Of a stretch of 64,000 bases of DNA, positions 41,053 to 45,656 are shown piece after piece; the stretch's first letter is position 1, and each line of letters opens with the position of its first letter. The position numbers and the translations under genes are program-made. A model generated the notes under the pieces. It saw only the letters and a program-made list of their open reading frames with translations, was not told the origin of the DNA and ran no database searches. The stretch comes from Paludisphaera mucosa (GTDB lineage: Bacteria > Planctomycetota > Planctomycetia > Isosphaerales > Isosphaeraceae): the NCBI RefSeq assembly GCF_029589435.1, contig NZ_JARRAG010000002.1:186001-250000 (forward strand), given 5' to 3'.

Positions 41053-42201
41053 TCAGGCGACGGCAGGCCGAGGAACGCCGAGTTCGTCCAGCCGCCGGTC
41101 GAGCATGCGCTCCAGGGCCTCGGCGGTGCGGCGATAGGTCTGATGGTCGGAGCCGATCGGGTCGGGGACGTCGTCGCCCTCGGGGTCGAGGAGCGTCGCG
41201 AAGGTTTCGGCCTCCGGGGCGGCGTCGAGGAGGGTGTCCAGGTGGTCGAGGGTCATCGCGAAGACGCGGTCGGCCTGGCGGATCAGGTCGAGGCTGACGG
41301 CGCGGCTGCGGTGCTGGTCGAGCGAGCCCCCCATGGCGCGAAGGACCTCGACGGCGTGGGGGGCCGCCGGCGCGCCGTGAGAGGCCGCGACGCCCGCCGA
41401 GACGACGAGGTAGCCCCGCTCCTCCAGGTCGGCCACGGCGCAGTTCAGGCGGCGGGCGAGCAGGACCTTGCAGATGGCCTCGGCCATCGGGCTGCGACAG
41501 GTGTTGCCGGTGCAGATGAAGGCCAGGACGATCCCGGAGCGTCGGGAGAGCGTCGCGGCGTCGACGGCCCCCTCGCGGACGATCGACCAGCGGTCGTCCT
41601 GGACGCGGACGGCGGTCGCGACCCGGCCGAAGCGGGTCGGCCCGGAGTCGATGGCCATGTCGACGCCGGCCATGGCGCGCAGGGGGTCGGCGGTCGTCGC
41701 CGGCGAGCGGTCGGGGTTGCGGACCAGGCTGAGCACCAGCGGGGCCGGGCAGAACCGAAGGAGGTGCCGGATCAGCGGATCCTCGGGGCAGCGGAGGGCC
41801 ACGTCCCCTTCGGGCGAGATCATCGCCTTGACCGGTGCCGGGAGGCGGTCGAAAAGGCCGTCGCGGGAGGGGCGCGGGAAGATCAAGGCGACCGGGCCGG
41901 GCCAGCAGCGGCGGGCCAATCGGCCGCCGATCGCGGGGATCCCCGGGACCCAGTCGGCCGCCTCCGCGGGGCCCTTCACCAGGATGGTCAGGGGCCGGGG
42001 CGCGGCGTCGCCCCGGAGCCGACGGAGCTGGGCGACCCCCTCGGGATTCAGGGCGCTGGCGGCCAGGCAGTAGACCGTCTCGGTCGCCAGGCCGACGACG
42101 CCCCCCTGGGCCAGGCAGGCGACGGCCCGATGCACCACGTCGCGGGCGTCGTCGCACTGCGACAGGTCGATCCACTGGGGCGATGCGGGGCTGTCCGTCA
42201 T
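41053..42201 (-). CDS. fusion of threonylcarbamoyl-AMP synthase (TsaC/Sua5 type) and low-molecular-weight protein phosphatase with arginine-phosphatase signature
   Basis: A 382-residue two-domain protein. Residues 10-210 are a YrdC/Sua5 domain (AVACLAQGGVVGLATETVYC, PRPLTILVK, WPGPVALIF, ALRCPEDPL), which makes threonylcarbamoyl-AMP for tRNA t6A. Residues 225-375 are a low-molecular-weight phosphatase with the P-loop ICTGNTCRSPMAE (Cys230, Arg236) and the acid loop DVPDPIGSDHQTYRR. Thr234 occupies the position that in Bacillus YwlE selects phosphoarginine over phosphotyrosine (YwlE reads CTGNTCRS, from memory). In Bacillus, the homologues ywlC and ywlE are neighbours; here they are fused. The ribosome site is weak. 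It lies 64 bases after the DUF493 gene, probably in one transcript. Confidence 0.92.
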   Translation of the reverse strand: MTDSPASPQWIDLSQCDDARDVVHRAVACLAQGGVVGLATETVYCLAASALNPEGVAQLRRLRGDAAPRPLTILVKGPAEAADWVPGIPAIGGRLARRCWPGPVALIFPRPSRDGLFDRLPAPVKAMISPEGDVALRCPEDPLIRHLLRFCPAPLVLSLVRNPDRSPATTADPLRAMAGVDMAIDSGPTRFGRVATAVRVQDDRWSIVREGAVDAATLSRRSGIVLAFICTGNTCRSPMAEAICKVLLARRLNCAVADLEERGYLVVSAGVAASHGAPAAPHAVEVLRAMGGSLDQHRSRAVSLDLIRQADRVFAMTLDHLDTLLDAAPEAETFATLLDPEGDDVPDPIGSDHQTYRRTAEALERMLDRRLDELGVPRPAVA

Positions 42202-42265: not shown

Positions 42266-42562
42266 TCAGATCAGATAGGCCAGGCCGCCGACGTCCCGGA
42301 GCTGCTCGTAGATGGCGAGGACCTGCTCGGCGTTCTGGACGGTCAGCTCGAGCGTCACGGCGATGTGGCGGCCCCCCGGCGTGATCCGCACCGAGTAATC
42401 CAGGTCGGAGGGCGCGGCCAGGTGGGACGACACGGCCTGGACCACCCGCCCCTCGAAATCGTCCTCGGCCCGGCCGATCGCCTTGATGATGTAGCTGCCG
42501 GGGAACAGGTGCGTCGATTCGAGGAGTTCCAACGAAGGGCGATGAGCCGGTTCACTGTCCAT
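42266..42562 (-). CDS. DUF493 family protein
   Basis: A 98-residue DUF493/YbeD-like protein with the ferredoxin-like pattern: LELLESTHLFPGSYIIKAIG, FEGRVVQAVSSHL, YSVRITPGGRHIAVTLELTV, and AEQVLAIYEQLRDVGGLAYLI. The biochemical role of the family is not known; a small-molecule or protein-binding regulatory domain is supposed. The ATG at 42562 has a GGGAG site; the frame is open further but turns non-coding. In the minus-strand run with the 29-residue basic protein upstream (290 bases) and the TsaC-phosphatase fusion downstream. Confidence 0.87.
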   Translation of the reverse strand: MDSEPAHRPSLELLESTHLFPGSYIIKAIGRAEDDFEGRVVQAVSSHLAAPSDLDYSVRITPGGRHIAVTLELTVQNAEQVLAIYEQLRDVGGLAYLI

Positions 42563-42852
42563 GGCCTTGCTCCCAGGGAAGGCAAGAGCGAGCTGGCGAC
42601 GGGTCCGCATCGCGGGAGTCGCCTCAATCATACGGCCCGACCCGCCCCTCCGGAAACCCGACTCGGCGATTTTCGGCCCCTCGCCCGATCCGGCCGGCTT
42701 CGAAAACACGAACAGCCTCACGCCGAGGGATCCTCGGGGCGAGGCTGACCGCGAATGCTCTGCCTGGGCGGGGGGGAGTCAGTCCTGCGGCGGGCCGGCG
42801 GGGACGTGGCGTCGACCGGTCGGCTGCTGCGGCGGGGCCTGAGTCCGGCGGC

Positions 42853-44117: not shown

Positions 44118-45656
44118 ATGCGACCTTCCCTGATCCAGAGCTACCTGTCCGGCAAGGCCGCCGGCGACGTCTCCCCCGCGTTCCTCGCCTACCTCGCCAG
44201 CCTGGAGACGGTCGCGGGGGTCGCCCCCGACGTCGCCCGCGCGATCGTCGCGGAGCTGGCCGACCAGCGCGGCAACATCAAGCTGATCGCCAGCGAGAAC
44301 TACTCGTCGCTGGCCACCCAGCTCGCCATGGGCAACCTGCTGACCGACAAGTACGCCGAGGGGATCCCGCACCACCGCTTCTACGCCGGCTGCGACAACG
44401 TCGACGCGGTCGAGGACCTGGCCAACGCCCGGGCCTGCGAGCTGTTCGGCGCCGAGCACGCCTACGCCCAGCCCCACAGCGGGGCCGACGCCAACATGGT
44501 CGCGTTCTGGGCCATCCTCCGGGCCCGCGTCGAGCTGCCCGCGATGGCCGAGATCCTCGGCCTCGAGAACGCCGCCGCGCTCGCGCCGGCCGACTGGAAC
44601 AAGATGCCCCTGGAGCAGTGGAACAAGGTCCGCGTCGCCCTGGGGAGCCAGCGGCTCCTGGGGATGGACCTGGCCTCGGGCGGCCACCTCACGCACGGCT
44701 ACCGCCTGAACGTCTCGGGCAAGATGTTCGAGGCCCACGGCTACACCGTCGACCGCGAGACCTTCCTGCTCGACTACGACGCCATCGAGAACCAGGCCCT
44801 CGAAGTGAGGCCGCTGATCCTGCTGGCGGGCTTCAGCGCCTATCCCCGCAACATCAACTACCGCCGGATGCGCGAGATCGCCGACAAGGTGGGCGCGGTC
44901 CTGATGGTCGACATGGCCCACTTCTCGGGCCTGGTCGCCGGCAAGGTGCTGACCGGCGACGAGGACCCGCTGGCCTTCGCCGACGTCGTGACGACCACCA
45001 CCCACAAGACGCTCCGCGGCCCCCGCGGCGGGCTCGTGCTCTGCAAGAAGGAATTCGCCGAGCACGTCGACCGCGGCTGCCCGCTCGTGCTGGGCGGCCC
45101 CCTGCCCCACGTCATGGCGGCCAAGGCGGTCGCGTTCACCGAGGCCCTGCGGCCCGAGTTCAAGACCTACGCCGCCAAGATCGTCGAGAACTCCCGGGCG
45201 CTCGCCGAGGCCTTCGTGTCGGTCGGGCTCAACGTGATCTCGGGCGGGACCGACAACCACCTGGTCCTGGTCGACGTGGCCTCGGCCCTGGGAGTCACCG
45301 GCCGCCAGGCCGAGGACGCCGTCCGTCGCTGCGGGATCACTCTCAACCGCAACCCGATCCCGTTCGACCCCAACGGCCCCTGGTACACCAGCGGCCTGCG
45401 GTTCGGCACCCCCGCCGTCACCACCCTGGGCATGGGCCGGGCCGAGATGCGCGAGATCGCCGAGGTCGTCCACCTGGTCCTCACCCACATCGTCCCCGCC
45501 GAGGGCAAGTCGGGCGGCAAGGACAAGGCCAAGTACACGCTCGATCAGGCCGCCGAGAAGCAGGCCAGCGACCGCGTGGCCAAGCTCCTCGAATCGTATC
45601 CGGTCTACCCGGAACTCGACCTGGCGTTCCTCAAGGCCCAGTTCGACGCGAGCTGA
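44118..45656 (+). CDS. glyA: serine hydroxymethyltransferase, long form
   Basis: GlyA interconverts serine and glycine with tetrahydrofolate, using PLP. Conserved blocks are [67 protein letters not shown], and [14 protein letters not shown] with the PLP Lys297. At 512 residues it is about 95 longer than the E. coli enzyme: an extra N-terminal stretch, about 35 inserted residues after [14 protein letters not shown] (with [20 protein letters not shown]), and a C-terminal Lys-rich insert. Chlamydial SHMT is similarly long, from memory, so this is a phylum-type variant rather than damage. A candidate promoter lies 67 bases upstream; rhodanese follows 30 bases later. Confidence 0.95.

Follow-up and report, generated by a model that had tools for sequence, protein, structure and literature searches.

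An arginine-phosphatase-type protein fused to a folded, probably retired TsaC domain in Planctomycetota

A TsaC-phosphatase fusion gene in Paludisphaera mucosa

The window analyzed here, a 64,000-nucleotide stretch of the Paludisphaera mucosa genome (8.2 Mb in 9 contigs, completeness 100), carries a gene that is open in a single frame from an ATG start and encodes a YrdC domain followed by a low-molecular-weight (LMW) phosphatase domain (Table 1). A first-pass annotation of the DNA had proposed such a single-protein fusion, and the proposal is borne out by domain matches, predicted structure and relatives. The YrdC model PF01300 scores 90.7 bits against a cut-off of 25.1, and the LMWPc model PF01451 scores 82.8 bits against a cut-off of 23.2. 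AlphaFold2 predicts the whole chain with a pLDDT of 94.7 and a pTM of 0.89. The predicted YrdC half aligns with Sua5 of P. abyssi (6f89; Z 26.9 over 206 residues, rmsd 2.1, 24% identity), which together with the Pfam score indicates that the YrdC fold is present, and the predicted phosphatase half aligns with YwlE of B. subtilis (4etn; Z 24.4 over 144 residues, rmsd 1.4, 36% identity). The P-loop and the D-P-I-G acid loop named in the annotation are both in place, as is the threonine that it had assigned to the phosphoarginine-selecting position (Thr234, the PX5 residue). A second genome of the same genus (G359) encodes a fusion with 81% identity to the window protein.

A DUF493 gene precedes the fusion. 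It is possible that the two are co-transcribed as one unit, which would lie outside the mechanism proposed below.

Table 1. Features of the fusion locus, in window coordinates
Feature	Position	Strand	Basis or remark
TsaC/YrdC-YwlE fusion gene, 382 aa	41053..42201	(-)	ORF, Pfam, predicted structure, relatives
YrdC (PF01300) domain, residues 30-211	41569..42114	(-)	Fold kept, both catalytic motifs lost
KxR motif site, reads R63-G64-D65	42007..42015	(-)	Alignment to the genome's own Sua5 and 148 other fusions
SxN motif site, reads L159-V160-R161	41719..41727	(-)	Same alignment; solved Sua5 proteins have S-A-N
LMWPc (PF01451) arginine-phosphatase-type domain, residues 227-367	41101..41523	(-)	Pfam, structure comparison
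P-loop C230-T-G-N-T234-C-R236-S237; Thr234 is the PX5 selectivity residue	41491..41514	(-)	143 of the 149 aligned fusions have Thr
General-acid Asp347 of the D-P loop (D347-P-I-G)	41161..41163	(-)	Asp in 149 of 149 fusions
DUF493 gene	42266..42721	(-)	Upstream of the fusion, gap of about 64 bases, same strand
glyA (serine hydroxymethyltransferase)	44118..45656	(+)	2 kb from the fusion, other strand

Distribution and origin of the fusion

A search of 393 planctomycete genomes of at least 90% completeness with the window fusion as query gave some match in 387, and among the matches listed at least 150 genomes have a two-domain match. All but one of these 150 fusions (that of G190) were fetched and analyzed, and all 149 are single frames. 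For 80 of the 243 other genomes, a profile built from 40 fusions (A1) served as query, and it revealed both halves in one frame in 38. The first-pass annotation had suggested a survey of how widely the fusion occurs in planctomycetes; it is present in 188 of the 230 genomes examined individually, out of the 393.

Outside the phylum, the best 80 of at least 528 related loci include single-frame fusions in six Omnitrophota loci (L100 among them) and in a Gemmatimonadetes MAG (L107), as well as a fusion cut by the contig end in an Aerophobetes MAG (L103). Two Bacillota proteins (L110, 2938-4545 (+), and L113, 614-2398 (+)) carry YrdC, the Sua5 C-terminal domain (PF03481) and an LMW phosphatase in one frame. 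These three-domain proteins, which possibly represent a separate or intermediate fusion, indicate that such joining has occurred with the Sua5 C-terminal domain retained.

The surroundings of the fusion suggest how it was formed. In Omnitrophota locus L096 the gene order is fusion, RpiB, GlyA, cytidine-deaminase family and NrdR, and rpiB and glyA follow the fusion in all six Omnitrophota loci. The same order is seen in Firmicutes (L117, L120 and L122), where Sua5, phosphatase, rpiB and glyA are consecutive, separate genes. Among planctomycete loci, rpiB adjoins the fusion in 31 of 39, in one case (L044) on the opposite strand. Because this order is shared with the separate-gene cluster, the fusion most likely arose by the joining of neighbors in a Sua5-YwlE-RpiB-GlyA cluster. 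No rpiB was found in the window; the glyA gene located there is perhaps a remnant of the cluster.

Both domains are already known individually, and domain databases may well include the architecture, so we make no claim to a first report. Searches of the open literature (subscription journals were mostly outside their reach) listed no work whose subject is a fusion of YrdC and LMW phosphatase, McsB in planctomycetes, a phylum-wide planctomycete set of arginine-phosphorylation genes, or conditional decay of the fusion.

Loss of TsaC motifs tracks a separate Sua5

KxR and SxN are the catalytic motifs of TsaC. They are kept by the four solved Sua5 sequences, as K-x-R and S-A-N, and by most fusions whose genomes lack a second TsaC. 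The YrdC half of the window protein lacks both, the corresponding sites having become R63-x-D65 and L159-x-R161. Nor is the fusion the only or main TsaC of its genome. Three genes there match PF01300, namely the fusion, HypF (762 bits) and a separate, complete Sua5 of 342 aa with both PF01300 and PF03481. The absence of both motifs from the fused half, together with this second enzyme, suggests that the window protein probably no longer makes threonylcarbamoyl-AMP.

The first-pass annotation had viewed the fusion as a link between tRNA modification and arginine dephosphorylation. For the window protein this part of the claim lacks support, and the fused half was rejected as the t6A enzyme of this organism on the grounds of the lost motifs and the separate Sua5. 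For relatives without another TsaC the claim is supported: since 53 of the 57 searched genomes whose fusion keeps both motifs have no separate Sua5, tRNA modification and arginine dephosphorylation are probably combined in one protein there. Where the fusion is the sole TsaC found, it is thus probably bifunctional and also serves as the t6A enzyme of the cell.

Both KxR and SxN are retained in 74 of the 149 fusions; 57 have neither the Lys of KxR nor SxN, and 18 are mixed. One of the latter (G160, with K, without R and without SxN) was scored as lost in the statistics, giving 58 lost and 17 mixed. The PF01300 search covered 115 of the 149 genomes. A separate Sua5 is present in 40 of 41 motif-lost genomes, G160 being the exception, versus 4 of 57 motif-kept genomes, and in 6 of 17 mixed ones. 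With the 17 mixed rows of the 115 left out of the two-by-two table and kinship disregarded, Fisher's test gives p = 1e-21. In genomes other than that of the window, Sua5 was called by score and frame length as a PF01300 match of more than 165 bits outside the fusion, and HypF as matches, whole or in pieces, that score 97-164 bits and lie in frames some 750-1070 aa long. Five Sua5 calls scanned with Pfam, including the long-frame examples from G281 and G266, all contain PF01300 and PF03481.

The association is also seen when kinship is taken into account. Five families hold both states (f3, f12, f35, f58 and f77), and the contrast runs in the expected direction in each; the exceptions within them, G160 and two genomes that keep the motifs alongside Sua5, all belong to f3. 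A tree of the 149 fusions built without the motif columns has 13 state changes, and its well-supported branches yield 7 independent pairs. When the pairing was repeated 200 times, Sua5 differed in the same direction in 6.2 pairs on average and in the opposite direction in 0.0 (one such pair in each of 2 pairings), with a median sign-test p of 0.031 (range 0.016-0.125). A tree of the phosphatase half only retains just 4 well-supported pairs and is weak (median p 0.125).

Predictions for a second set of fusions were fixed from Sua5 presence before the motifs were read, with 13 expected to be lost and 23 kept. For these 36 further fusions, 32 predictions were right, 2 were wrong and 2 outcomes were intermediate. 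Twelve of the 13 predicted losses were observed, G023 having kept both motifs, while 20 of the 23 predicted to be kept were kept (counting G019, whose motifs were both read by eye in the alignment), two were mixed (G055 and G121) and one was lost (G014). Two second-set fusions, those of G088 and G035, lie outside the predictions.

Thus, a separate Sua5 in the genome usually goes together with decayed motifs and an intact phosphatase half. Exceptions occur in both directions. Both motifs are lost with no Sua5 found in G160 (99% complete, 290 contigs) and G014 (90% complete, 320 contigs), and both are kept despite Sua5 in G278, G391, G206, G349 and G023. The KxR/SxN criterion is strict: ten mixed fusions from genomes with no Sua5 found have no R at the aligned position and keep K and SxN (for example G010, G046 and G073), which suggests that the aligned R of KxR is not an absolute requirement. 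One fusion (G084) has R in place of the K, and 3 of the 57 both-lost rows retain R at the R position.

Divergence and possible constraint of the decayed YrdC half

A decayed YrdC half could be without a role, a leftover heading for deletion, in which case the protein would be a plain arginine phosphatase. Several observations agree with this. Within families, the median ratio of YrdC distance to phosphatase distance is 2.18 for pairs in which both fusions have lost the motifs (644 pairs) and 1.05 where both have kept them (181 pairs), leaving out mixed rows and pairs more than 97% identical in the phosphatase. PF01300 scores drop as low as 22.7 bits (G065), and in G331 the model does not match the fused half at all. 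Moreover, eight genomes (G199, G286, G176, G383, G142, G175, G257 and G237) encode a free YwlE-type phosphatase in an ORF of 160-225 aa, with PX5 Thr in each case, and all eight have a separate Sua5. These free phosphatases indicate that some lineages can do without the YrdC half, and hence that a docking role is not needed everywhere.

Other data argue that the half is still under constraint. In the f2 genus, dN/dS for the decayed YrdC half is 0.05-0.13 in the printed pairs with a defined value, versus 0.04-0.05 for the phosphatase, and in the genus of the window protein the two halves have close values of 0.23 and 0.21. These ratios for the decayed half are far below 1, although many f2 dS values exceed 1, some are undefined, and many pairs have a dS close to saturation. 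The YrdC half is retained in 37 of the 42 f2 genomes read, whereas one has part of it and four have lost it. Even a strongly decayed copy (G018) is predicted confidently, with a pLDDT of 92.5, a pTM of 0.87 and a Foldseek match to Sua5 6f89 at 3.3e-11. On balance, we regard a roleless leftover as somewhat unlikely for the window protein.

The phosphatase half and its arginine kinase

A published study states that Thr at PX5 favors phosphoarginine and Ile favors phosphotyrosine (PMC8001253). The P-loop Cys, the P-loop Arg and the acid Asp are each present in 149 of 149 fusions, whose PX5 residue is Thr in 143, Ser in 4, Leu in 1 and Ile in 1. In 38 further fusions the residue is Thr (27), Leu (4), Ser (2), Ile (2), Met (1), Arg (1) or Val (1). 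By contrast, Ile (15) or Ser (3) and never Thr occupies this position in 18 non-fused, lower-scoring LMW phosphatases of the phylum. These controls come from 20 stretches with lower-scoring non-fused matches, of which one gave no LMW phosphatase and one proved to be the G023 fusion; the eight free YwlE-type phosphatases described above were counted apart, and further free matches exist, for example in f21 and f67. The window protein thus has both features of the YwlE-type class, the LMW-PTP fold with a C(X)5R P-loop and D-P acid, and Thr at PX5, and its phosphatase half is probably a protein-arginine phosphatase, the specificity for phosphoarginine being read from these residues.

An ordinary LMW tyrosine phosphatase unrelated to McsB would fit the matches of the window protein to the NCBIfam tyrosine-phosphatase models NF007520 and NF008486, both far under cut-off, and the presence of Leu, Ile, Val, Met or Arg at PX5 in some fusions (f25, f31, f33, f36, f49, f54, f56 and f61). 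However, the PX5 contrast between fusions and non-fused paralogues points the other way, and the nearest solved relatives are a T. tengcongensis protein (4egs, the best PDB sequence match, at 1.5e-19) and YwlE. Furthermore, the fusion is the sole LMWPc match in a genome that encodes McsB. A tyrosine phosphatase is therefore unlikely.

The first-pass annotation had predicted an McsB-like arginine kinase in this organism and had proposed a search for McsB and ClpC; McsB and a ClpC-like ATPase were found. The single PF00217 gene of the window genome encodes protein arginine kinase McsB (NF002194, 441 bits, cut-off 385), which matches solved McsB at 2.8e-87. Directly upstream are two tandem McsA-like genes that score 123 and 104 bits with NF053706, under its cut-off of 210. 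A ClpC-like ATPase with two Clp_N domains, AAA domains and a UVR motif is also encoded. It is a tandem McsA-like pair, not a single gene, that precedes McsB here (L002, 151-1348 (+)).

McsB was found in 386 of the 393 planctomycete genomes, the seven with no match being G003, G021, G104, G105, G186, G236 and G380. In G104 and G105 the fusion is present and the McsB match is absent. Because McsB is nearly universal in the phylum, its co-presence with the fusion provides no contrast test. Likewise, all eight searched non-planctomycete genomes with the two-domain fusion (six Omnitrophota, L103 and L107) have McsB, as do 8 of 9 other searched genomes, two of which are planctomycete records, and this comparison also offers no contrast. 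A 14-genome control set was left unused since PF00217 and PF02861 gave no match in its Bacillus subtilis genome, although mcsB and clpC are known from this species; the relevant stretch may be missing from the genome used. Four planctomycete genomes of families f43, f64 and f69 (G066, G079, G100 and G169) have no LMW phosphatase match at 1e-10, and they encode a short unfused TsaC of about 215 aa together with McsB.

A proposed role for the fusion

From the computed observations, namely the fusion, the motif loss, the separate Sua5, the McsB and ClpC genes and the association of loss with Sua5, we infer with a probability of about 0.72 that the window protein is a YwlE-type arginine phosphatase that counters McsB, carried on a folded, catalytically retired TsaC domain. 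In this scheme the phosphatase would counteract McsB within a planctomycete McsA-McsB-ClpC system, stripping McsB marks so that proteins are spared from ClpC. In the planctomycete form, the YrdC half has the size of TsaC and lacks the Sua5 C-terminal domain. If no other TsaC is present, the fused YrdC keeps its motifs and the protein probably acts as both t6A enzyme and phosphatase. With a separate Sua5 available, decay of the motifs is usual and the phosphatase remains intact, and some lineages have lost the YrdC half altogether. The window protein would represent a middle stage, with a working arginine phosphatase and a TsaC half that is retired yet folded, most likely retained as a structural or docking part.

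It could be argued that the window protein is still bifunctional, with a YrdC half that makes threonylcarbamoyl-AMP through an altered active site and a second Sua5 that is redundant. The confident retention of the fold, the five genomes that keep both motifs despite Sua5, and the sole-TsaC fusions that must still work without the canonical R of KxR would be consistent with this. Nevertheless, the window copy lacks both motifs, motif loss follows Sua5 across genomes, and the TsaC/Sua5 equivalog model TIGR00057 gives the fusion 85.6 bits, under its cut-off of 123.2, while the separate Sua5 passes with 201 bits. We consider continued TsaC activity very unlikely. A frame that joins two genes through sequencing error or mis-assembly, which the first-pass annotation had named as a way to refute its reading, can be dismissed, as all 149 fetched planctomycete copies, the window's included, and the six Omnitrophota loci are single frames.

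Returning to the arginine phosphatase on a retired TsaC domain, there is precedent for its connection to t6A synthesis. In B. subtilis, McsB marks TsaD at Arg282, YwlE reverses the mark, and ClpCP degrades marked TsaD (PMC7546277), which supplies a reason for linking a t6A enzyme with an arginine phosphatase. By analogy, the YrdC half might be a docking module that holds the phosphatase on the t6A machinery, where McsB tagging of TsaD would be reversed locally, and, once a separate Sua5 takes over catalysis, it might persist as a pseudoenzyme with a targeting or gating effect on the phosphatase. This more specific proposal is tentative, and we judge it rather unlikely as it stands. TsaD is encoded in all 17 genomes searched, and an Arg is found in all 17 aligned sequences in the phosphosite region, onto which we take B. 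subtilis Arg282 to map. This Arg is probably conserved also in bacteria without McsB, and it is not counted as evidence.

Relation to known systems

The phosphatase half resembles YwlE/PtpB of Bacillus and Staphylococcus in its fold, in its P-loop with PX5 Thr, in its D-P acid loop and in its genomic setting of McsB, McsA-like and ClpC-like genes, and the rpiB and glyA neighbors of its relatives recall the firmicute YwlE cluster. Unlike those enzymes, it is fused C-terminal to a YrdC domain. The YrdC half shares its fold with TsaC/Sua5, and its motifs survive in most fusions from genomes where no other TsaC was found; however, a phosphatase replaces the Sua5 C-terminal domain, and the window copy lacks KxR and SxN. 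The three-domain Bacillota proteins likewise join YrdC and LMWPc in one frame, but they differ in having PF03481 between the domains and in their PF01300 scores of 205-207 bits. Another parallel is YciO, a PF01300 paralogue of TsaC that does not perform TsaC's function in vivo (PMC12506659). YciO keeps most active-site residues, whereas the decayed half is motif-less and fused. The Thermoanaerobacter LMW phosphatase 4egs was deposited as ribose 5-phosphate isomerase RpiB, and its link to rpiB is the deposited name alone.

How common arginine phosphorylation is beyond Firmicutes was described in 2022 as unclear (PMC9604228). With McsB in 386 of 393 genomes and the fusion in 188 of the 230 examined, Planctomycetota offer a whole phylum in which arginine phosphorylation outside Firmicutes can be tested. 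The fusion also constitutes a series of repeated natural experiments, wherein a catalytic domain relieved by a second enzyme decays and its fused partner persists. Moreover, it would give physical form to the connection of TsaD with McsB and YwlE described for B. subtilis (PMC7546277). If the docking proposal were true, an arginine-phosphorylation system spanning the phylum would be tied to translation fidelity in Planctomycetota.

Two groups of fusions have unusual P-loops. In all four f52 fusions read (L052, L225, L232 and L247), the second P-loop Cys, presumably the redox partner of the catalytic Cys, is replaced by Asp. Three fusions of families f31 and f61 (L277, L278 and L279) carry the altered P-loop C-x-G-N-L/V-N-R-S, and their phosphatase specificity may be changed.
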